A stretch of DNA of 64,000 bases from Salinivirga cyanobacteriivorans (GTDB lineage: Bacteria; Bacteroidota; Bacteroidia; Bacteroidales; Salinivirgaceae): the NCBI RefSeq assembly GCF_001443605.1, contig NZ_CP013118.1:1499501-1563500 (forward strand), given 5' to 3'. How positions within the stretch are numbered: the first letter of the stretch is position 1; the number at the start of each line of letters is the position of its first letter. This document shows, in pieces, positions 3,031 through 33,246 of this stretch. The position numbers and the translations under genes were made by a program. The notes under the pieces are model-generated. The model saw only the letters and a list, made by a program, of their open reading frames with translations, was not told the origin of the DNA and did no database searches.

Positions 3031-3052
3031 ACGGACACAAGAAATCCGTTCG

Positions 3053-3502
3053 TTTCGATTCGCGCAATTCCAACCCAAAGATCTACTCAACGAACTGCCG
3101 GAAAGACAAAACAGTTTTTTTTACCCAAAATGTTTCTTTGCTAAACCAGGAATATCGCTATACCTACCTTCAATAAGAGCTTCTTTCTTTTTTCTACCCC
3201 AACCCTGAACCTGTTTTTCACGATAAAAAGCTTCATCAATTCGATCATATTCTTCATAATAAACCAACTCCACTGGCAAATACTTTCTGGTGAAGTTCGC
3301 ACCTTTACCGCACTGGTGTTGTTCAATTCTTTTGTCAAGAAACTTTGTGCTTCCAGTATAATATTGTCCATTAGCACATTTAAGGATGTACATATAGCCT
3401 TTCATGATTCTATTATTTATAGACAAGATAGCAATAAAATGCAAAATAGAGAAATCAAAGAAGTTGCTGAGTGGACCGTGGGATAGCTCGTGGGAATCGA
3501 AA
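3053..3502. mobile_element. 450-bp element with ~40-bp imperfect terminal inverted repeats around a GIY-YIG gene
   Basis: The left end (3053-3092) starts TTTCGATTCGCGC and runs to CTACTCAACGA. The right end (3463-3502), read on the other strand, starts TTTCGATTCCCACG and contains CCACTCAGCAAC. The two ends are imperfect inverted repeats over about 40 bases and match both ends of the five short elements listed separately. Only this copy has a gene between the ends (GIY-YIG nuclease, 3121-3405). The right end abuts the next short element within about 10 bases. That this is a mobile unit is inferred from the inverted ends, the nuclease and the gene-less relatives; no target-site duplication could be confirmed. 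Confidence 0.55.
3121..3405 (-). CDS. Small GIY-YIG nuclease domain protein
   Basis: A stand-alone GIY-YIG domain of 94 residues (UPF0213/YhbQ-like group), expected to bind DNA and cut it with a metal ion. The motif pair appears as YMYILKC and YYTGST near the N-terminus, followed by the conserved arginine in DKRIEQH and the glutamate in FYREKQVQGW. An in-frame upstream ATG at 3444 exists, but the domain begins directly at MKGYMYIL, so the ATG at 3405 is preferred. There is no extra DNA-binding domain. The gene lies wholly inside the inverted-repeat element 3053-3502. The cellular role of this group is not settled. Confidence 0.85.
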   Translation of the reverse strand: MKGYMYILKCANGQYYTGSTKFLDKRIEQHQCGKGANFTRKYLPVELVYYEEYDRIDEAFYREKQVQGWGRKKKEALIEGRYSDIPGLAKKHFG

Positions 3503-3512
3503 TGGCCGGTGG

Positions 3513-3647
3513 TTTCGATTCGCGCTATTCCATCCCAAAAAGCTACTCAACGAACTAACGTAGCTCTATAAATCTCTGATTACAGAAAATTACAGTAAAA
3601 ACGAGAGGCCATTGAGTGGCTTGTGAGATGGCCAGCGGGAATCGAAA
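3513..3647. repeat. 135-bp inverted-repeat element, copy A
   Basis: Begins TTTCGATTCGCGCT and ends AGCGGGAATCGAAA. The outer 40 bases of each end pair imperfectly. Inside are a short palindrome (AGCTAC...GTAGCT) and a second one (GGCCAT...ATGGCC). No coding capacity. It lies just downstream of the stop of the first T9SS gene and directly follows the GIY-YIG element. Confidence 0.8.
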
Positions 3648-3680
3648 TGGCCGGGGTCAATTCATCCCTAAAGAAAAAAT

Positions 3681-5057
3681 TCATTTCTTAATCCATTTAC
3701 CGCTGTATATATTTCCGCTGTTTGAAACAATCTTATAAATGTATATGCCGGTTTGCATGGCCGATGTGTTTAGACGGTATTTTTTTCTAAAACTACCCTT
3801 TTGCACCATTTTACCCTGTAAATTATACACATACAGTTTGGCTGCTGAAACTTCTGGAATCTCAACATTCAGGTAATTCGTTCCCGGGTTTGGGTATGCA
3901 CGGTGCTTTCTCTGCATTGAAACCTCTTCGTTGTTGCCCACCAACATATCACCTTCCGCATTAAATTTAAATATTACAGCATCGGAGTAATCCGGTTGGT
4001 TGGAGACATTGTAACGCGAACTGGCTAAATATAATGACCCGTCTGGCCCAAGTGTCATATTTGTTAAAAAATAGTAGTAAGTACTATCAGCATAAAATTG
4101 ATGCCACAGCATAGAATCCGGAGTCAGGTATGAAACCCATAGTTCATTGGTATTGTAACTGCCAAGATGCACAGGATGTGGAGCCTGATTTGCCGGCAAG
4201 TAACCGGATGCAAATATTCTTGAGGTATCCGGATTAGGCGCCATAGATCGAAAATAGGTATAACGAGGCTCATCGTCACTGTGCCCAAAATACGGATAGT
4301 TCTGCACAACCTGGTAAGTTGAATCTCTAAAATCGATTGAGGTGTAGTTATCAAGTGTTTCTGAGGTGACTATATAACCGTCTTTTCCATTTGACATAAT
4401 ATTTCCACTCAAAGTAAGCAATCCAAATCCATGATATAAAGTATCTATTTCATTAAAAGATGTATCAAGCTCAACGATAAAACCTCCATTTTTTGCAAAG
4501 TGAAAGCTGTGATCGGTATATTTAATGGGTTCATAATTCAGTTGTGTTACAGTTTTATGCTGCTCCACAAAATTAAAATCCTCATCAAATTTAAAAAACT
4601 GTGTAGCAGGAGTCTGAATTGCCACAAACCTGCGTTGAAAATGCTCAAAGTACCTGAACCCTAATATCACAGGATTAAAATCATAAGATACATACCTGGT
4701 CCAAACCAGGTCTAAATTCCTGTCAAGGCAATGCAGAACTAATTTGCCTTTGTCATTATTGCCAGCTTGTACACCTATAACCACTACAGAATCGCCAAAA
4801 GGTACAAAATTGTATAACGTACCTCCATACAGGTGAAAAACCGTACTGTCTAATATAACTCCATTTTCATCATATTTCCAGATTATATTATCACCATTAT
4901 CGCGATGCAAACCGGAAACCCAAAGGGTATCATCAATAAATTGCATGCCAATAATAGTTACAGACCCTCCATGACCGACAGATATGAGCGGCTCCAAGGG
5001 CTGAGCCTTACTTGCCATGAATGATAATGCAAAAAAAAGAACAAATAAAATACGCAT
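3681..5057 (-). CDS. Secreted T9SS type A sorting-domain protein, copy 1
   Basis: A 458-residue exported protein. An N-terminal signal peptide (MRILFVLFFALSFMASKAQ) takes it to the periplasm. The last ~75 residues (from AYPNPGTNYLNVEI to NIYSGKWIKK) are a T9SS type A sorting domain, so it should cross the outer membrane and be released or anchored at the surface. The middle has repeated aromatic beta-strand-like stretches ending in a segment such as GPDGSLYLASSRY, suggestive of a propeller-type fold; no enzyme motif is seen. It follows its lipoprotein partner (5113-6087) by 55 bases. Its centre (DDEPRYTYFRSMAPNP) is closer to copy 3 than to copy 2. Function unknown. Confidence 0.88.
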   Translation of the reverse strand: MRILFVLFFALSFMASKAQPLEPLISVGHGGSVTIIGMQFIDDTLWVSGLHRDNGDNIIWKYDENGVILDSTVFHLYGGTLYNFVPFGDSVVVIGVQAGNNDKGKLVLHCLDRNLDLVWTRYVSYDFNPVILGFRYFEHFQRRFVAIQTPATQFFKFDEDFNFVEQHKTVTQLNYEPIKYTDHSFHFAKNGGFIVELDTSFNEIDTLYHGFGLLTLSGNIMSNGKDGYIVTSETLDNYTSIDFRDSTYQVVQNYPYFGHSDDEPRYTYFRSMAPNPDTSRIFASGYLPANQAPHPVHLGSYNTNELWVSYLTPDSMLWHQFYADSTYYYFLTNMTLGPDGSLYLASSRYNVSNQPDYSDAVIFKFNAEGDMLVGNNEEVSMQRKHRAYPNPGTNYLNVEIPEVSAAKLYVYNLQGKMVQKGSFRKKYRLNTSAMQTGIYIYKIVSNSGNIYSGKWIKK

Positions 5058-5073
5058 ATAAAAAAAGATTAAG

Positions 5074-5098
5074 GCAGGTTGCCCTTAAAGCAACCTGC
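5074..5098 (-). terminator. Hairpin between lipoprotein and T9SS genes, unit 1
   Basis: Read on the minus strand, GCAGGTTGC pairs perfectly with GCAACCTGC (9 bp) around a 7-base loop. The sequence CTTAATC and a run of seven T follow just before the ATG of the T9SS gene. It has the form of an intrinsic terminator placed inside the operon, so it may reduce read-through or act as an RNA processing or stability element. The same hairpin is kept in all three units. Confidence 0.55.
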
Positions 5099-5112
5099 TT
5101 ATAAAACAATAA

Positions 5113-6087
5113 TTACCACATTGGTTCAGGATTCACCGGGGCATAAATTTTTCTCTCATGGTATATTCCTGCATGAACCTCATACTTGTGTGTTATGGTT
5201 GTGGGAAAACCCGGTATATATTCAACCAAAACTTCTAAATCAAAAGGTGTCGCATTAACAGGTAAGTGATCAATGACAACTTCATCAATATGTTGCAAAA
5301 AATAGTTCATTTGGTCGGGTGAAATGCATTCGTCATAGTTATGACTATCCCAAATATAGGTCTCAAAAGCAACGAGATCAGCATATCCATAAAAATGATA
5401 AGGTCCGTCCACATCGGTAAACCAGAGTTCCTGATATTCCGGATTCAGATAATCAAAGGCATCATTGTGTGTAATGTAATAACGTTCCAGCTGGTCGCCC
5501 GAATATTCAGTGCTTGGATAATCATCATTGTATCCATTACACCTGCCTGTTAGCCAACCATGCCACCAGTCATAAAACTGAAATGGGTTACTGCTCTTTA
5601 GGTTATCACCTTCAAAAAGTTTTCCGGTTGTAGTATAAACCCATATCCCTGCACTATCCTCATTGCGTCCCTCCAATTCAAGATTCACTACCACCACATG
5701 CTTTGAGTCATATTTAAAATTATCATAAAACTCATAAATGCGATTATTAATTTCTACAAATGTGGCATTCACATCTTCGGCAGAAACCATACAACCATCA
5801 ATTAAATCTACTGTTATTAAAGCAGAATCTTTTCGTTTTTCGTCATAGTATAAATTTGGGAACCCATAGCTGTAATTCAGGGTTGCTTCGGTATACCAAA
5901 TCAGCGAATCGAGCAGCATTGATTGACCTCCTACGTTTTTTTGAAGCATATTGTCTTTAAAACTAATAACGCGTTGCTCTGGTCCATTATTATCAATGGA
6001 TTGTTTTATTTCAATTTCATCTTTCTCGCAACTCAAGAAAGCAATTGTAATTACTCCAAGCAGGGTAATTCCTAAAAATTTTCTCAT
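5113..6087 (-). CDS. Lipoprotein of unknown function, copy 1
   Basis: 324 residues with a lipoprotein signal (MRKFLGITLLGVITIAFLSC, lipobox LLSC-like at LSC-E), so it should be lipid-anchored after export. The mature part is acidic and aromatic-rich (for example FYDWWHGWLTGRCNGYNDDY) with no recognised family. It precedes the T9SS gene and shares an operon with it. Compared with the other copies, the N-terminal part differs (KQSIDNNGPEQRVISF, TLNYSYG, EDSAGIW), whereas the C-terminal ~90 residues (YADLVAFETYIWDSHNYDE onward) are the same as copy 3. Partner or surface-anchor role for the T9SS protein is inference. Confidence 0.85.
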   Translation of the reverse strand: MRKFLGITLLGVITIAFLSCEKDEIEIKQSIDNNGPEQRVISFKDNMLQKNVGGQSMLLDSLIWYTEATLNYSYGFPNLYYDEKRKDSALITVDLIDGCMVSAEDVNATFVEINNRIYEFYDNFKYDSKHVVVVNLELEGRNEDSAGIWVYTTTGKLFEGDNLKSSNPFQFYDWWHGWLTGRCNGYNDDYPSTEYSGDQLERYYITHNDAFDYLNPEYQELWFTDVDGPYHFYGYADLVAFETYIWDSHNYDECISPDQMNYFLQHIDEVVIDHLPVNATPFDLEVLVEYIPGFPTTITHKYEVHAGIYHERKIYAPVNPEPMW

Positions 6088-6187
6088 AATACAATAATTT
6101 AAGTTAGTGAATACCCTGCGATAATAATAATACAGCGCAAATAAATCTATATATTTCTTTGTTATTTATTATGTTTATTTACAAAAT

Positions 6188-6219
6188 TAACGCGATTTGC
6201 GAGTTCCTTATTGTGTTCG
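6188..6219 (+). repeat. Short palindromic repeat, copy 1
   Basis: TAACGCGATTTGCGAG followed by TTCCTTATTGTGTTCG. The same block stands in front of the short inverted-repeat elements at 8894 and 11781, at 12019 inside a broken tRNA copy, and inverted at 29968-30000. Better-preserved copies pair GTGAG with CTCAC and CGC with GCG. Confidence 0.6.
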
Positions 6220-6353
6220 TTTTGATTCGCACCACCCTTTCGCAAAGAGCTACTCAACGAACTTGCGTAGCTCTAAAAATCTCTGATTACAGAAAATTAC
6301 AGTAAAACCGGAGGCCATTGAGTGGCTTGTGAGATGGCCAGCGGGAATCGAAA
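6220..6353. repeat. 134-bp inverted-repeat element, copy B
   Basis: Ends with AGCGGGAATCGAAA. Its left end is more diverged (TTTTGATTCGCACC) than in the other copies. The internal AGCTAC/GTAGCT region is kept in altered form (AGCTACTCAACGAACTTGCG). It separates unit 1 from unit 2 of the tandem gene pairs; together with the leader of the unit-1 lipoprotein gene it fills the 299-base gap 6088-6386. Confidence 0.75.
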
Positions 6354-6386
6354 TGGCCGGGGTCAATTCATCCCTAAAGAAAAAAT

Positions 6387-7763
6387 TCATTTCTTAATCC
6401 ATTTACCGCTGTATATATTTCCGCTGTTTGAAACAATCTTATAAATGTATATGCCGGTTTGCATGGCCGATGTATTTAGACGGTATTTTTTTCTAAAACT
6501 ACCCTTTTGCACCATTTTACCCTGTAAATTATACACATACAGTTTGGCTGCTGAAACTTCTGGAATCTCAACATTCAGGTAATTCGTTCCCGGGTTTGGG
6601 TATGCACGGTGCTTTCTCTGCATTGAAACCTCTTCGTTGTTGCCCACCAACATATCACCTTCCGCATTAAACTTAAATATTACAGCATCGGAGTAATCAG
6701 GCTGATTGGTTACATCGTAACGCGAACTGGCTAAATATAACGACCCGTCTGGGCCCATAGTCATATTTGTTAAAAAATAGTAGTAAGTACTATCAGCATA
6801 AAATTGATGCCACAGCATAGAATCCGGTGTTAGGTATGAAACCCATAGCTCATTGGTATTGTAACTACCAAGATATACAGGATGTGGGGATTGGTTCAGC
6901 GGCAGGTATCCTGATGCAAATATTCTGGAGGTATCCGGATTAGGCGCCAAAGATCTAAAATCAGTATAATGTGGATATTCGTCACTATGCCCAAAATACG
7001 GATAGTTCTGAACAACCTGGTAAGTTGAATCCCTGAAATTGATTGTATTAAAATGGTCAAGAGTGAGAGAAGTGGCTATATATCCATCTTTACCATTCGA
7101 CATGATATTACCACTAGAAGAAAACACTCCAAATCCATGATATAAAGTATCTATTTCATTAAACGATGTATCAAGCTCAACTATAAAACCGCCATTTTTA
7201 GCAAAATGAAAGCTATGGTCGGTATATTTAATAGGTTCAAAATTTAAAAAAGTGGAGGTTCTGTGCTGCTCCACAAAATTAAAATCCTCATCAAATTTAA
7301 AAAACTGTGTAGCAGGAGTCTGAATTGCCACAAACCTGCGTTGAAAATGTTCAAAATACCTAAAACCCAAAATTACAGGGTCAAAGTCATAAGGCACATA
7401 ACTGGTCCAAACCAAATCTAAATTCCTGTCCAGGCAATGCAGCACTAACCTGCCTTTATCGTTATCTTCGCTTTGCACACCTATAACCACCACAGAATCG
7501 CCATAAGGCACAAAATTGTATAGCGTACCTCCGGGCAGATGAAATACCGTACTGTCTAATAAAGCTCCATTTTCATCATATTTCCAGATTATATCATCAC
7601 CATTATCGCGATGCCAACCTGAAACCCAAAGGGTATCATCAATAAACTGCATTCCGATAAAGGTTACAGAACCACTGTGCCCGACAGATATGAGCGGCTC
7701 GAGGGGCTGGGCCTTACTCACCATAAACGATAATACAAAAAACAAAACAAATAAAAAACGCAT
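6387..7763 (-). CDS. Secreted T9SS type A sorting-domain protein, copy 2
   Basis: 458 residues with signal peptide (MRFLFVLFFVLSFMVSKAQ) and the same C-terminal sorting domain as copy 1. It differs from copies 1 and 3 in the central third (for example DEYPHYTDFRSLAPNP and GYLPLNQSPHPVYLG), while the first ~80 and last ~120 residues are almost unchanged. It shares with copy 1, against copy 3, the stretch EIDTLYHGFG and the FEHFQRRFVAIQTPATQ segment. The 3' flank is identical to those of copies 1 and 3. It lies 55 bases downstream of its lipoprotein partner. Confidence 0.88.
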   Translation of the reverse strand: MRFLFVLFFVLSFMVSKAQPLEPLISVGHSGSVTFIGMQFIDDTLWVSGWHRDNGDDIIWKYDENGALLDSTVFHLPGGTLYNFVPYGDSVVVIGVQSEDNDKGRLVLHCLDRNLDLVWTSYVPYDFDPVILGFRYFEHFQRRFVAIQTPATQFFKFDEDFNFVEQHRTSTFLNFEPIKYTDHSFHFAKNGGFIVELDTSFNEIDTLYHGFGVFSSSGNIMSNGKDGYIATSLTLDHFNTINFRDSTYQVVQNYPYFGHSDEYPHYTDFRSLAPNPDTSRIFASGYLPLNQSPHPVYLGSYNTNELWVSYLTPDSMLWHQFYADSTYYYFLTNMTMGPDGSLYLASSRYDVTNQPDYSDAVIFKFNAEGDMLVGNNEEVSMQRKHRAYPNPGTNYLNVEIPEVSAAKLYVYNLQGKMVQKGSFRKKYRLNTSAMQTGIYIYKIVSNSGNIYSGKWIKK

Positions 7764-7779
7764 ATATTTAAAGATTAAG

Positions 7780-7804
7780 GCAGGTTGCCCTTAAAGCAAC
7801 CTGC
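7780..7804 (-). terminator. Hairpin between lipoprotein and T9SS genes, unit 2
   Basis: Same 9-bp stem GCAGGTTGC/GCAACCTGC and 7-base loop as in unit 1, but here the trailing T-run is interrupted (CTTAATCTTTAAATATATG), so termination should be weaker than in units 1 and 3. Confidence 0.5.
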
Positions 7805-7818
7805 ATATAAAACAATAA

Positions 7819-8793
7819 TTACCACATTGGCTCGGGGTTGACCGGGGCATAAATTTTTCTCTCATGGTATGTTCCGGCATGAACTCGATATTCATGCAAA
7901 ATAGTTGTGCGAGTACCAGATATATATTCAACTAACACCTCTAAATCAAACGGTGTAGCATCAACAGGTAGATCATCAATGACAACCTCATCTATATGTT
8001 GCAAAAAATAGTTCATTTGGTCGGGTGAAATGCATTCGTCATAGGTATAACTATCCCACATGTATTCAGTCCAGGTATCGTCAGCATAGTACCCATAAAA
8101 ATGATAAGGTCCATCCACATCGGTAAACCAGAGTTCCTGATATTCCGGATTCAGATAATCAAAGGCATCATTGTGTGTAATGTAATAACGTTCCAGCTGG
8201 TCGCCCGAATATTCAGTGCTTGGATAATCATCATTGTATCCATTACACCTGCCTGTTAGCCAACCATGCCACCAGTCATAAAACTGAAATGGGTTACTGC
8301 TCTTCAGGTTATCACCTTCAAAAAGCTTTCCGGTTGTAGTATAAACCCATATTCCTGCACCATCCTCATTGCGTCCCTCCAATTCAAGATTCACTACCAC
8401 CACATGCTTTGAGTCATATTTAAAATTATCATAAAACTCATATATGCGATTATTAATTTCTACAAATGTGGCATTCACATCTTCGGCAGAAACCATACAA
8501 CCATCAATTAAATCTACTGTTATTAAAGCAGAATCTTTTCGTTTTTCGTCATAGTATAAATTTGGGAACCCATAGCTGTAATTTAGGGATGCTTCGGTAT
8601 ACCAAATGAGTGAATCGAGTAGCATTGATTGACCTCCTACGTTTTTTTGAAGCATATTATCTTTAAAATTAATAACGCGTTGCTCTGGTCCATTATTCTC
8701 AAAGGATTGTTTTATTTCAATTTCATCTTTCTCGCAACTTAAAAAAGCAATTGTAATTACTCCAAGCAGGGTAATTCCTAAAAATTTTCTCAT
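7819..8793 (-). CDS. Lipoprotein of unknown function, copy 2
   Basis: 324 residues, with the same lipobox signal as copy 1. The N-terminal two-thirds are almost identical to copy 3 (KQSFENNGPEQRVINF, SLNYSYG, EDGAGIW). The last ~90 residues are the most divergent of the three (YYADDTWTEYMWDSYTYDE, VEYISGTRTTILHEYRVHAG). This C-terminal change is clustered rather than scattered, as expected if a cassette had been exchanged. It is the first gene of the second tandem unit. Confidence 0.85.
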   Translation of the reverse strand: MRKFLGITLLGVITIAFLSCEKDEIEIKQSFENNGPEQRVINFKDNMLQKNVGGQSMLLDSLIWYTEASLNYSYGFPNLYYDEKRKDSALITVDLIDGCMVSAEDVNATFVEINNRIYEFYDNFKYDSKHVVVVNLELEGRNEDGAGIWVYTTTGKLFEGDNLKSSNPFQFYDWWHGWLTGRCNGYNDDYPSTEYSGDQLERYYITHNDAFDYLNPEYQELWFTDVDGPYHFYGYYADDTWTEYMWDSYTYDECISPDQMNYFLQHIDEVVIDDLPVDATPFDLEVLVEYISGTRTTILHEYRVHAGTYHERKIYAPVNPEPMW

Positions 8794-8893
8794 AATACAA
8801 TAATTTAAGTTAGTGAATACCCTGCGATAATAATAATACAGCGCAAATAAACCTATATATTTCTTTGTTATTTATTATGTTTATTTACAAAAT

Positions 8894-8925
8894 TAACGCG
8901 ATTTGCGAGTTCCTTATTGTGTTCG
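8894..8925 (+). repeat. Short palindromic repeat, copy 2
   Basis: Same sequence as the copies at 6188 and 11781, placed immediately left of an inverted-repeat element. Confidence 0.6.
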
Positions 8926-9060
8926 TTTCGATTCCCGCTATTCCATCCCAAAAAGCTACTCAACGAACTAACGTAGCTCTGGAAATTTCTTATTACAAAA
9001 AATTACAGTAAAAACGAGAGGCCATTGAGTGGCTTGTGAGATGGCCAGCGGGAATCGAAA
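8926..9060. repeat. 135-bp inverted-repeat element, copy C
   Basis: TTTCGATTCCCGCT ... AGCGGGAATCGAAA, perfect 14-bp ends. The whole element appears identical to copy E (11813-11947), so one arose recently from the other together with the neighbouring gene unit. Confidence 0.82.
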
Positions 9061-9094
9061 TGGCCGGGCCAACAGGAATCGAAGCAACTGTCCG

Positions 9095-9229
9095 TTTCGT
9101 TTCCCGCTATTCCATCCTAAAGAGCTACTCAACGAACTTGCGTAGCTCTAGAAAAATTTTGATTACAGAAAATTACAGTAAAACCGGAGGGCATTGAGTG
9201 GCTGGTAATAAAGCCAGCGGGAATCGAAA
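9095..9229. repeat. 135-bp inverted-repeat element, copy D
   Basis: Left end TTTCGTTTCCCGCT, right end AGCGGGAATCGAAA. The right interior differs from the other copies (GCTGGTAATAAAGCC). A single base pair in the stem and several loop bases differ from copy C, which lies 34 bases away in the same orientation. Confidence 0.8.
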
Positions 9230-9262
9230 TGGCCGGGGTCAATTCATCCCTAAAGAAAAAAT

Positions 9263-10648
9263 TCATTTCTTAATCCATTTACCGCTGTATATATTTCCGC
9301 TGTTTGAAACAATCTTATAAATGTATATGCCGTTTGGCATGGCCGATGTATTCAAACGGTGTTTTTTTCTAAAACTAGTCATTTGTAACATTTTACCCTG
9401 TAAATTATACACATACAGTTTGGCCGCTGAAACTTCAGGAATCTCAACATTCAGGTAATTCGTTCCCGGGTTTGGGTATGCACGGTGCTTTCTCTGCATT
9501 GAAACCTCTTCGTTGTTGCCCACCAACATATCACCTTCCGCATTAAATTTAAATATTACAGCATCGGAGTAATCCGGTTGGTTGGAGACATTGTAACGCG
9601 AACTGGCTAAATATAATGACCCGTCTGGCCCCATTGTCATATTTGTTAAAAAATAGTAATAAGTACTATCAGCATAAAACTGGTGCCACAACATAGAATC
9701 CGGCGTTAGGTATGAAACCCATATCTCATTTGTATTGTAACTGCCAAGATGCACAGGATGTGGAGCCTGATTTGCCGGCAAGTAACCGGATGCAAATATT
9801 CTTGAGGTATCCGGATTAGGCGCCATAGATCGAAAATAGGTATAACGTGGATCATCGTCACTGTGCCCAAAATACGGATAGTTCTGCACAACCTGGTAAG
9901 TTGAATCCCTGAAATGAATTTCATAATACACCTCATTATTAATCATAGTTGAAGAGGTCGCCACATAAACGCCTTTACCATTCGACATAATATTCCCACT
10001 ATGAGAAAATACTCCAAGCCCCAAATATAAAGTATCTATCACATTGAAAGTTGTATCCAGCTCAAAAATAAATGCCCCTCCTTTGCCAAAATGAAAGCTA
10101 TGATCGGTATATTTAATGGGTTCAAAATTTAAATGGGCTGCGATTTTATATTGTTCTATAAAATTAAAATCTTTATCAAACTTAAAAAACTGTGTAGCAC
10201 CAGTTTGAATTTCCACAAACCTTCGCTGAAAGCCCCTAAAGTGTCTGAACCCCATAATATATGGATCAAAATCATAAGTGACAAATTTCGACCAAACAAG
10301 GTCTAAATTCCTGTCAAGGCAATGCAGAACTAACTTGCCTTTGTCGTTATCACCGGCCTGCACACCTATAACCACCACAGAGTCGCCATAAGGCACAAAA
10401 TTATATAACGTACCTCCATACAGGGGAAAAACTGTACTGTCTAATAAAGTTCCATTTTCATTATATTTCCATATTATATTATCACCATTATCGCGATGCA
10501 AACCCGATACCCAAAGGGTATCATCAATAAATTGCATGCCAATAATAGTTACAGACCCTCCATGACCGACAGATATGAGCGGCTCCAAGGGCTGAGCCTT
10601 ACTTGCCATGAATGATAATGCAAAAAAAAGAACAAATAAAATACGCAT
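9263..10648 (-). CDS. Secreted T9SS type A sorting-domain protein, copy 3
   Basis: 461 residues, three longer than the other two. It has the same signal peptide as copy 1 and the same sorting-domain end apart from a small change (MLQMTSFRKKHRLNTSAMPN). The central third is the most divergent of the family (WSKFVTYDFDPYIMGFRHF, GKGGAFIFELDTTFNVID, STMINNEVYYEIHF), whereas the following segment DDDPRYTYFRSMAPNP returns to near identity with copy 1. The abrupt change of similarity argues for recombination among copies. Confidence 0.88.
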   Translation of the reverse strand: MRILFVLFFALSFMASKAQPLEPLISVGHGGSVTIIGMQFIDDTLWVSGLHRDNGDNIIWKYNENGTLLDSTVFPLYGGTLYNFVPYGDSVVVIGVQAGDNDKGKLVLHCLDRNLDLVWSKFVTYDFDPYIMGFRHFRGFQRRFVEIQTGATQFFKFDKDFNFIEQYKIAAHLNFEPIKYTDHSFHFGKGGAFIFELDTTFNVIDTLYLGLGVFSHSGNIMSNGKGVYVATSSTMINNEVYYEIHFRDSTYQVVQNYPYFGHSDDDPRYTYFRSMAPNPDTSRIFASGYLPANQAPHPVHLGSYNTNEIWVSYLTPDSMLWHQFYADSTYYYFLTNMTMGPDGSLYLASSRYNVSNQPDYSDAVIFKFNAEGDMLVGNNEEVSMQRKHRAYPNPGTNYLNVEIPEVSAAKLYVYNLQGKMLQMTSFRKKHRLNTSAMPNGIYIYKIVSNSGNIYSGKWIKK

Positions 10649-10664
10649 ATAAAAAAAGATTAAG

Positions 10665-10689
10665 GCAGGTTGCCCTTAAAGCAACCTGC
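10665..10689 (-). terminator. Hairpin between lipoprotein and T9SS genes, unit 3
   Basis: Same perfect 9-bp stem and 7-base loop as in the other units, followed by CTTAATC and seven T, as in unit 1. Confidence 0.55.
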
Positions 10690-10705
10690 TTTTATAAAAC
10701 AATAA

Positions 10706-11680
10706 TTACCACATTGGTTCAGGATTCACCGGGGCATAAATTTTTCTCTCATGGTATATTCCTGCATGAACCTCATACTTGTGTGTTATGGTTGTGGGAA
10801 AACCCGGTATATATTCAACCAAAACTTCTAAATCAAAAGGTGTCGCATTAACAGGTAAGTGATCAATGACAACTTCATCAATATGTTGCAAAAAATAGTT
10901 CATTTGGTCGGGTGAAATGCATTCGTCATAGTTATGACTATCCCAAATATAGGTCTCAAAAGCAACGAGATCAGCATATCCATAAAAATGATAAGGTCCG
11001 TCCACATCGGTAAACCAGAGTTCCTGATATTCCGGATTCAGATAATCAAAGGCATCATTGTGTGTAATGTAATAACGTTCCAGCTGGTCGCCCGAATATT
11101 CAGTGCTTGGATAATCATCATTGTATCCATTACACCTGCCTGTTAGCCAACCATGCCACCAGTCATAAAACTGAAATGGGTTACTGCTCTTCAGGTTATC
11201 ACCTTCAAAAAGCTTTCCGGTTGTAGTATAAACCCATATTCCTGCACCATCCTCATTGCGTCCCTCCAATTCAAGATTCACTACCACCACATGCTTTGAG
11301 TCATATTTAAAATTATCATAAAACTCATATATGCGATTATTAATTTCTACAAATGTGGCATTCACATCTTCGGCAGAAACCATACAACCATCAATTAAAT
11401 CTACTGTTATTAAAGCAGAATCTTTTCGTTTTTCGTCATAGTATAAATTTGGGAACCCATAGCTGTAATTTAGGGATGCTTCGGTATACCAAATGAGTGA
11501 ATCGAGCAGCATTGATTGACCTCCTACGTTTTTTTGAAGCATATTATCTTTAAAATTAATAACGCGTTGCTCTGGTCCATTATTCTCAAAGGATTGTTTT
11601 ATTTCAATTTCATCTTTCTCGCAACTTAAAAAAGCAATTGTAATTACTCCAAGCAGGGTAATTCCTAAAAATTTTCTCAT
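10706..11680 (-). CDS. Lipoprotein of unknown function, copy 3
   Basis: 324 residues and a clear mosaic. Residues 1 to about 230 match copy 2 (KQSFENNG, NFKDNML, SLNYSYG, EDGAGIW). From YADLVAFETYIWDSHNYDE to the end it matches copy 1 (VNATPFDLEVLVEYIPGFP). Signal and lipobox are the same as in the others. It is the first gene of the third unit and lies next to the tRNA-Thr region. Function unknown. Confidence 0.85.
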   Translation of the reverse strand: MRKFLGITLLGVITIAFLSCEKDEIEIKQSFENNGPEQRVINFKDNMLQKNVGGQSMLLDSLIWYTEASLNYSYGFPNLYYDEKRKDSALITVDLIDGCMVSAEDVNATFVEINNRIYEFYDNFKYDSKHVVVVNLELEGRNEDGAGIWVYTTTGKLFEGDNLKSSNPFQFYDWWHGWLTGRCNGYNDDYPSTEYSGDQLERYYITHNDAFDYLNPEYQELWFTDVDGPYHFYGYADLVAFETYIWDSHNYDECISPDQMNYFLQHIDEVVIDHLPVNATPFDLEVLVEYIPGFPTTITHKYEVHAGIYHERKIYAPVNPEPMW

Positions 11681-11780
11681 AATACAATAATTTAAGTTAG
11701 TGAATACCCTGCGATAATAATAATACAGCGCAAATAAACCTATATATTTCTTTGTTATTTATTATGTTTATTTACAAAAT

Positions 11781-11812
11781 TAACGCGATTTGCGAGTTCC
11801 TTATTGTGTTCG
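11781..11812 (+). repeat. Short palindromic repeat, copy 3
   Basis: Identical to the block at 8894-8925 and again directly in front of an inverted-repeat element. Confidence 0.6.
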
Positions 11813-11947
11813 TTTCGATTCCCGCTATTCCATCCCAAAAAGCTACTCAACGAACTAACGTAGCTCTGGAAATTTCTTATTACAAAAAATTACAGTAAAA
11901 ACGAGAGGCCATTGAGTGGCTTGTGAGATGGCCAGCGGGAATCGAAA
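11813..11947. repeat. 135-bp inverted-repeat element, copy E
   Basis: Perfect ends TTTCGATTCCCGCT/AGCGGGAATCGAAA; whole sequence appears identical to copy C. It is the outermost element on the tRNA side of the tandem array. Confidence 0.82.
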
Positions 11948-11965
11948 TGGCCGGGGTCAAATAAA

Positions 11966-11990: not shown

Positions 11991-11993
11991 TTG

Positions 11994-12078
11994 AGCCGAT
12001 GGAGGGATTACGCATCGCTAACGCGATTTGTGAGCTCCTCACTGCGTTCGTCGGTTCGAACCACACGACCTGCTGATT
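11994..12078 (-). pseudogene. Broken duplicate of the tRNA-Thr 3' half with a 45-base insert
   Basis: Plus-strand GCCGATGGAGGGATT (3' end of the tRNA-Thr gene, 11995-12009) and TTCGAACC...ACGACCTGCTGATT (12055-12078) match the intact gene, but 45 bases (12010-12054) are inserted between them, inside the T-arm. The insert is the short palindromic repeat also seen at 6188, 8894, 11781 and 29968. The TT at both junctions could be a two-base target duplication. The 5' half of the tRNA is missing, so no functional tRNA is expected. Confidence 0.75.
12019..12050 (+). repeat. Short palindromic repeat, copy 4 (inside tRNA remnant)
   Basis: TAACGCGATTTGTGAG then CTCCTCACTGCGTTCG. The best-formed copy: GTGAG pairs with CTCAC and CGC with GCG. 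Followed by GGTTCGAACC of the tRNA T-arm. Confidence 0.65.
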
Positions 12079-12137: not shown

Positions 12138-12211
12138 AGCCGATGGAGGGATTCGAACCCACGACCTGCTGATTACAAATCAGCTGCTCTGACCAACTGA
12201 GCTACATCGGC
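12138..12211 (-). tRNA. tRNA-Thr (anticodon TGT)
   Basis: 74 bases read on the minus strand. Acceptor GCCGATG pairs with CATCGGC. The D-arm (GCTCAGTTGGTCAGAGC), the anticodon stem-loop with loop TTTGTAA, giving anticodon TGT for ACA codons, and the T-arm GTGGGTTCGAATCCC are all complete. The 3' CCA is not encoded. Followed by a good terminator and by a broken copy of its own 3' half. Confidence 0.95.
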
Positions 12212-32506: not shown

Positions 32507-33166
32507 ATGGAAATAAAAATTATGCGCAACGTACTGGACAAAAACCAAAACAAAGCTGATGAAATTCGGCAATTATTGAAGGAAAAACAAATTACGATGT
32601 TCAACTTTATAAGCTCTCCCGGCTCTGGGAAAACAACCATCCTGGAGCTTATTTGCCAGGAATTTGCTAAAAAAATCCGCCTGGGAATCATTGAGGGTGA
32701 TGCCTATACAGATCGCGATGCAAAAAGGCTGGCAATATATGATGTACCAGTAGTACAAATCAACACAGAGGGTACATGTCACCTCGATTCCCACAGCATC
32801 AGTAAGGCTTTGGAACAACTTAATTTGGATGAGCTCGACGTCATTATTGTCGAAAATGTGGGCAATTTAATCTGCCCCACGGCTTTCGATTTGGGCGAGC
32901 ATTATCGCATTGCTGTGGTTAGCACCACTGAAGGTGACGACAAGCCGATAAAATACCCCATGTTGTTCAGAGAATCCCACGCTGTAATACTGAATAAAAC
33001 AGACCTCATCCCTTACACCAATTTCTCAATGGAGCAATTCAATAAAGATTTAAAATCTTTGAATGGCAGCATACCTGTTTTTAATATTTCGAGCACCAAA
33101 AAAAATGGTCTACATGAATTGATGGAGTGGTTTGGCAAGTGTTTTAAACGGGTTGCAGGAATATAG
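32507..33166 (+). CDS. hypB: HypB nickel-insertion GTPase
   Basis: 219 residues, G3E-type GTPase. P-loop SSPGSGKTT (about residues 36-44), EGDAYTDRDA, metal site in TEGTCHLDSH, and NKTDL. It lacks both the N-terminal CxxCGC nickel motif and a His-rich stretch, so nickel storage must be done elsewhere. Two bases after hypA. Its 3' end lies in the first of two 30-bp direct repeats. Confidence 0.94.
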   Translation: MEIKIMRNVLDKNQNKADEIRQLLKEKQITMFNFISSPGSGKTTILELICQEFAKKIRLGIIEGDAYTDRDAKRLAIYDVPVVQINTEGTCHLDSHSISKALEQLNLDELDVIIVENVGNLICPTAFDLGEHYRIAVVSTTEGDDKPIKYPMLFRESHAVILNKTDLIPYTNFSMEQFNKDLKSLNGSIPVFNISSTKKNGLHELMEWFGKCFKRVAGI

Positions 33167-33246
33167 GAGGCTTTATCAAACGCAATGGGGACATCATCGG
33201 GCGAGTAGGCTATGTCGTTGCAGGAATATAGGAGGCTTTATCAAAC
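33152..33246. repeat. 30-bp direct repeat spanning the hypB end
   Basis: GTTGCAGGAATATAGGAGGC plus TTTATCAAAC occurs exactly at 33152-33181 and 33217-33246, 65 bases apart. The first copy encodes the last five hypB codons (VAGI and stop), so the second is a duplicate of the gene end. The 35 bases between them include a stretch (TAGGCTATGT) similar to the hypC-hypD spacer. Confidence 0.8.

Follow-up and report, generated by a model that had tools for sequence, protein, structure and literature searches.

Short palindromes rank among the most frequent repeats of bacterial genomes, and their named enzyme partner is RAYT (the REP-associated tyrosine transposase), which belongs to the repetitive extragenic palindromic (REP) sequences of the GTAG type. 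The CGTC REPs are found in alpha-Proteobacteria, Bacteroidetes, Chlorobi and other bacteria; according to Di Nocera et al. 2013 (PMC3733652), they are short, often paired, and "apparently lack a dedicated transposase". No nuclease or transposase partner is mentioned in the 2025 RepRanger survey. Here we examine a 64,000-nucleotide stretch of the complete 4.81-Mb genome of Salinivirga cyanobacteriivorans (NZ_CP013118.1, positions 1,499,501 to 1,563,500; "the window" below), in which a gene for a small GIY-YIG nuclease lies between inverted-repeat units that also bound gene-less elements. We assign a probability of about 0.72 to the reading that this locus belongs to a widespread partnership in which small stand-alone GIY-YIG nucleases are paired with REP-like palindromes, similar to RAYT/REP but built on an unrelated enzyme. 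In the open-access literature we found no report joining GIY-YIG proteins to REPs or palindromes, and none when searching by the repeat sequence, although an earlier report may exist elsewhere.

A GIY-YIG gene between inverted-repeat units

The GIY-YIG gene occupies positions 3121-3402 on the minus strand (93 aa from MKGYMYIL), and the frame stays open farther upstream, as far as 3444, where there is a TTG start. A first-pass annotation, made from the DNA letters alone, had noticed that the ends of the segment around this gene match both ends of five short elements. We confirmed this with a covariance model of the ~47-nt unit (R1, built in part from the window's own units), which gives 12 matches in the window, all within 3048-11952, and places the ends within a few bases of where they had been put. 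E-values range from 5.5e-17 to 7e-11, with 1.5e-4 for the partial unit to the right of the gene. What had been described as a 40-bp end is an inverted-repeat unit of ~47 nt with the form stem-TTCGATTC...GCNACTCAA-stem', in which at least three stem types occur (GTTCG/CGAAC, GTTCTC/GAGAAC and GGCCA/TGGCC). The arms covary: 98.3% of the pair cells are complementary, and the covariation was reached by none of 500 shuffles. The ends are REP-like inverted repeats rather than those of a simple transposon with terminal inverted repeats. Neither a GTAG at the foot nor a CGTC tag is present in the window units, and Rfam holds no family for them.

The left unit of the gene-bearing segment lies at 3048-3095 (plus strand; stem GTTCGTT/AACGAAC; R1 60.2 bits, E 1.7e-15). 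The right unit, at 3463-3509 on the minus strand, was delimited by alignment and a partial R1 match (3468-3501, 23.4 bits); its outer arm (ATGGCC) is not complementary to its inner arm (GTTGC). It is one of two hybrid units with mismatched arms (GTTGC/TGGCC), the other being the left unit of the adjacent gene-less element (3508-3555, GGTGG/CGAAC). Every ~135-bp gene-less element combines a GTTC-type unit with an inverted GGCC-type unit. Element E3513 (3508-3654) consists of the hybrid-armed unit 3508-3555 (+) and the unit 3607-3652 (-), with R1 scores of 44.6 and 59.9 bits; E6220 (6215-6360) of units 6215-6262 (+) and 6313-6358 (-), with 58.7 and 59.9 bits; E8926 (8921-9067) of units 8921-8968 (+) and 9020-9065 (-), with 65.2 and 59.9 bits; E9095 (9090-9236), which adjoins E8926, of units 9090-9137 (+) and 9189-9234 (-), with 48.3 and 50.8 bits; and E11813 (11808-11954) of units 11808-11855 (+) and 11907-11952 (-), with 65.2 and 59.9 bits.

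The genome as a whole carries 48 R1 unit matches (among the matches listed), mostly in gene-less pairs, and ~36 of these lie outside the window. It encodes 14 GIY-YIG domains, and the gene at 3121-3402 is the only one with such units. From the letters of one stretch, the first-pass annotation could not see that the association is general and, as described below, reaches the CGTC REP superfamily.

The encoded protein matches PF01541 (GIY-YIG, E 2.2e-17), and no second domain was found by Pfam within its ~94 aa; NCBIfam has no family for it. The closest solved structures are those of UPF0213 proteins, 1zg2 (E 4e-20) and 1ywl, and the AlphaFold2 model (mean per-residue confidence, pLDDT, 92.7) has UPF0213 as its nearest fold, matching 1zg2, followed by Slx1, a branched-DNA nuclease. 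Tyr6 and Tyr16 (the two motif tyrosines), Arg26 and Glu63 are invariant in 17 sequences, and the gene is under purifying selection, with a median ratio of nonsynonymous to synonymous substitution rates of 0.07 over 42 pairs.

Linkage across phyla and movement with the gene

Homologs of the window protein in its order, which we call clade A (mostly 55-72% identity), sit among palindromes with the core stem-GAG-N-TCGA-stem', for example GGTGGTTGAGCCTGTCGAAACCACC; their arms covary, and the window palindromes are a long-loop form of this shared core. A strict rule found 41 palindromes within the 92 kb surrounding 31 GIY-YIG loci and none in 245 kb taken from elsewhere in 20 of the same genomes; a relaxed rule applied to the same stretches gave 92 and 1. 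The strict detector was fixed before a second count, at 80 loci of another collection whose named genomes belong to Bacteroidota, Ignavibacteria, Chlorobi, Calditrichota, Kapaibacteria, Desulfobacterales, Planctomycetota and Melainabacteria; a few of these loci come from genomes used in the first count. The density here falls steeply with distance from the gene, from 3.07 palindromes per kb at 0-200 bp through 0.88 and 0.10 in the next two intervals to 0.02 at 800-1500 bp and 0.05 at 1.5-3 kb. A palindrome is found within 800 bp of the gene at 56 of the 80 loci by the strict rule and at 68 by the relaxed one; most of the remaining 12 have degenerate, diverged or long-loop palindromes when inspected by eye. 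Near clade-A genes the palindromes often form arrays. A chance origin was rejected, with no strict palindrome in 444 kb of shuffled sequence or in the 245 kb of other stretches.

The linkage is specific. No palindrome lies near any of the 17 small GIY-YIG genes of other clades or the nine UvrC genes inspected in 15 palindrome-rich genomes, and the Y1_Tnp genes discussed below are likewise free of them. Across 393 genomes of the order, where at most 19 candidates per genome were scored and copy numbers were not used, short-loop matches occur in 45 of the 48 genomes with a clade-A gene, versus 87 of the 345 without a close match to one (Fisher p ~1e-20). The first-pass annotation had regarded ends that are widespread without the gene as evidence against its proposal, and half of that picture is what we see, with at least one short-loop match in about a quarter of the genomes that have no close clade-A gene.

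The type of palindrome also follows the protein. When the loop classes (CNNAG, CYTG, GNNC and long) are placed on a protein tree of 83 distinct rows, 28 changes are required, compared with a mean of 44.6 and a minimum of 38 in 300 shuffles. A planctomycete protein (locus L184) groups with two from Bacteroidales (L047 and L070), all three with the GNNC loop, and it is 91% identical to that of L047; this identity, together with the grouping across phyla, points to horizontal transfer.

Evidence for movement comes from related genomes. In another genome of the same genus (G004; the window's genome is G000), the same units flank an ortholog with 71% identity (locus L043) on both sides, at a different genomic place. 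The protein of Salinivirgaceae bacterium BM715 (L122) is the same as that of G004 over the columns compared. A third genome of the genus, G005, has neither the GIY-YIG gene nor the units. The comparison of occupied and empty sites that had been suggested did provide an empty site: the orthologous place in G004 (an ACT-domain-like gene followed by tRNA-Thr; L269) is without the whole 3053-11954 block, of which E11813 forms the right edge, and has no unit, no GIY-YIG gene, no copy of the 2.7-kb repeat described below and no intact palindrome. Three more places that carry units in G000 are unoccupied in G004. The GIY-YIG gene of G004 adjoins a TetR gene whose counterpart in G000 carries a gene-less pair.

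Pairs of loci with 80-91% identical proteins mostly have in common only the gene-bearing segment of 240-506 bp plus short repeat matches, as seen in nine pairs compared over 1.5-3 kb around the genes. The clearest case is a further pair, from two Chlorobiaceae (L149 and L164), which have ~443 bp in common at otherwise unrelated sites; the shared stretch runs from a palindrome across the whole gene and stops within the core of a palindrome. Loci L164 and L174 have syntenic flanks and differ by ~344 bp, a difference that joins two palindromes inside the core and leaves a hybrid in L174. We regard the partnership and its mobility as well supported. The GIY-YIG gene is likely the active partner of the palindromes, as the first-pass annotation had proposed; its enclosure by the same ends in G004, and its relatives in several phyla among palindromes with the same core, strengthen that proposal.

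The proposal that the five short elements are gene-less derivatives, comparable to miniature inverted-repeat transposable elements (MITEs), fared less evenly. They do have their ends in common with the gene-bearing copy, but most of them mark a tandem triplication, and orphan palindromes are common. A two-gene unit of ~2.7 kb, encoding a 458-461 aa protein with a Por_Secre_tail domain and a 324-aa lipoprotein-like protein, is present in three tandem copies at 3598-11807, as identified from direct repeats spaced 2706 and 2876-2887, open reading frames and Pfam; the copies are 77-100% identical to each other. Elements E3513, E6220, E8926/E9095 and E11813 form the edges of these copies, and most of the five are therefore segmental duplicates rather than independent insertions; the exception is the extra copy E9095.

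Beside the triplication, at 11991-12075, lies a partial tRNA-Thr copy that is interrupted near its T-loop by a palindrome (AACGCGATTTGTGAGCTCCTCACTGCGTTCG) and adjoins an intact tRNA gene at 12138-12211. A close 33-nt copy of this palindrome is found ahead of E6220, E8926 and E11813, and locus L269 of G004 contains a similarly broken tRNA copy. We also entertained the idea that the palindrome core goes back to the T-loop sequence of a tRNA (TTCGATTCCCGC), which is unsupported. Elsewhere in the window a perfect 30-nt direct repeat occurs at 33152-33181 and 33217-33246, 65 bp apart.

A possible mechanism and its rivals

The partnership is more certain than the way in which the nuclease would cut; binding and cutting of the palindromes by the GIY-YIG protein, as well as the copying pathway, are what we infer from the comparisons above. 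The mobile unit would be palindrome, GIY-YIG gene, palindrome, with a length of ~440-510 bp, and the gene-less ~135-bp pairs would be copies similar to REPs or bacterial interspersed mosaic elements (BIMEs), mobilised in trans or persisting as orphans. In the most likely mechanism, the ~94-aa UPF0213/Slx1-like nuclease would recognise the core (TTCGA...CTCA) between complementary arms, in the form of a folded hairpin, a cruciform or a symmetric duplex site. It would then cut in or near the core, a placement suggested by the hybrid joints in the window and by that of L174 as compared with L164, where the break falls inside the core. When such a break is repaired from another copy, or when two cut sites are joined, a palindrome, with or without the gene, would be copied to a new position. 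Hybrid palindromes, deletions and tandem amplifications would be expected by-products, and the 2.7-kb triplication is probably one of them.

Several observations weigh against this reading. The 7-bp stems close a 34-nt loop, and the GTTCG units fold at -2.6 to -3.6 kcal/mol, little or no better than shuffled sequences; the folded form may therefore not be the one recognised. No target-site duplication was found, the intergenic sequence at L269 being too diverged to read one. The strict detector was designed after inspection of the 31 loci that it counted. The protein tree is based on few columns and has many open forks, and relatedness of the hosts may add to the clustering of loop classes. 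Finally, orphan palindromes in genomes without a close GIY-YIG gene are common. On the same folding result, and with copies dispersed in both orientations, transcript hairpins or terminators were rejected as the whole story.

The strongest rival sees the palindromes as REP-type repeats in their own right and the GIY-YIG gene as a homing-endonuclease-like parasite, which lands in cut palindromes and does not spread them. Free-standing GIY-YIG homing endonucleases of phages move in this manner, the gene being copied into the break that its nuclease makes. The orphan palindromes in those 87 genomes and the hybrid palindromes that flank the window gene would both be accommodated. Such a parasite does not readily explain why the palindromes, which often form arrays, are concentrated in the nearest 400 bp on either side of the gene and are nearly absent from the stretches sampled elsewhere, why G005 is without both gene and palindromes, or why loop type tracks the protein tree. 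We consider this explanation unlikely, though it deserves more weight than the two that follow.

Another view is that the protein is a structure-specific repair nuclease, similar to Slx1 or UPF0213, that resolves palindrome cruciforms, and that the linkage reflects protection from instability rather than spread. The nearest folds and the strong purifying selection agree with it. The patchy distribution (48 of 393 genomes), the unrelated sites and the transfer across phyla are atypical of a repair gene, however, and a gene acting in trans need not adjoin the palindromes, which makes this view very improbable. Mobilisation by some other enzyme, such as a Y1/RAYT transposase with the GIY-YIG gene as a passenger, is largely refuted: Y1_Tnp genes are present in nine of ten genomes tested, and GAGTAG, which includes the GTAG of classical REPs, is present in the core of 30 of the 74 long-loop palindromes, but the 96 kb surrounding 30 Y1_Tnp genes (from genomes including that of the window) contain no palindrome, no convincing R1 match lies near the Y1_Tnp genes of the window's genus, and palindrome type follows the GIY-YIG protein.

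A GIY-YIG nuclease that partners REP-like palindromes would have several consequences. Genes annotated only as "GIY-YIG nuclease family protein" would gain a function, the origin and spread of palindromic repeats would become directly testable, and a minimal (~94 aa) palindrome-recognising nuclease would be at hand. That gene and palindromes travel together suggests that this type of GIY-YIG protein is the missing partner of widespread palindromic repeats.

Other GIY-YIG groups and known systems

A GIY-YIG locus of another clade, L210, lies among CGTC-type REPs. Having picked the motif GTCATTGCGA after inspecting this locus, we later gathered 30 Bacteroidota loci of the same clade (clade B), where it occurs at 4.42 per kb within 0-200 bp of the gene, 2.0 at 200-400 bp, 0.39 at 400-800 bp and 0.14 at 800-1400 bp, and is found within 400 bp in 22 of the 30. 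The clade-B repeats have the forms GTCATTGCGA...GAAGCAATC and CGTCATCCTCGGGCTTGACCCGAGGATCCA, with the CGTC tag present. Twelve plasmid loci (from Azospirillum, Sinorhizobium, Rhizobium, Shinella, Neorhizobium, Novosphingobium, Sphingobium, Planktothrix, Spirosoma and Photobacterium) carry, as judged by eye, CGTC-like palindromes such as CGTCATCCTCGGGCTTGACCCGAGGATCCA; generic palindromes number 5.21 per kb at 0-200 bp versus 0.9 per kb at 0.8-1.4 kb, and lie on both sides of the gene in eight of the twelve. On plasmid p3 of Azospirillum lipoferum 4B (L300, 2989-3282), a clade-B GIY-YIG gene is located between sufB and sufC with CGTC-like palindromes on both sides.

Members of a third group of small GIY-YIG genes have a tRNA gene within ~450 bp (L025, L030, L033, L206, L208, L211, L212, L213, L224, L234 and L235), and no tRNA gene lies within such a range at the clade-B loci scanned. 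Several genes of this third group stand in tandem with partial tRNA copies, as in G000 at 2.8599-2.8612 Mb (tRNA-Leu) and 2.872-2.876 Mb (tRNA-Met). Two further GIY-YIG genes of this genome, L026 (G000:3598253) and L027 (G000:1784450), appear by eye to lie between perfect ~15-bp inverted repeats, TTCACCCTGT(T/C)AAATA. At L026 a repeat region is followed by a reverse-transcriptase-like frame, resembling a diversity-generating retroelement, and the gene at L027 is embedded in a Y1_Tnp-like frame, next to codons for TPNHFHLM; both of these observations were also made by eye.

We lean, by a small measure, toward the view that stand-alone GIY-YIG nucleases are the enzyme class that serves bacterial palindromic repeats in general, with clade-specific DNA partners: GAG...TCGA palindromes for clade A, CGTC REPs for clade B and tRNA genes for the third group. 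If this generality is true, CGTC REPs would have the enzyme that they were missing, and the REP/RAYT lifestyle would have a second, unrelated solution.

The window locus can be compared with several known systems. It resembles RAYT/REP systems (REPtrons) in that a small single-domain nuclease gene lies among inverted palindrome pairs that are also scattered gene-less in the genome, but its enzyme is of the GIY-YIG and not the HUH/Y1 type, and its core is GAG...TCGA between varying arms. Since the Y1 domain is absent and the window units lack a GTAG foot, the locus is not a REPtron. The likeness to CGTC REPs lies in the clade-B genes, which sit among those repeats, whereas the window palindromes are without the CGTC tag and belong to clade A. 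In common with MITEs and their parent insertion sequences, gene-less and gene-bearing copies have both ends in common; unlike them, the locus has no DDE or Y1 transposase, and its ends are self-complementary units with varying arms. The protein agrees with the stand-alone GIY-YIG proteins of the UPF0213/YhbQ family in fold, size and catalytic Tyr, Arg and Glu, and searchable papers give no palindrome link for that family. Finally, the gene appears to be self-moving, as are the free-standing GIY-YIG homing endonucleases known as Seg proteins in T4-like phages. Seg-type enzymes are tied to a cognate insertion site and not to a dispersed palindrome family carried with the gene, whereas the GIY-YIG gene of the window goes with such a family.

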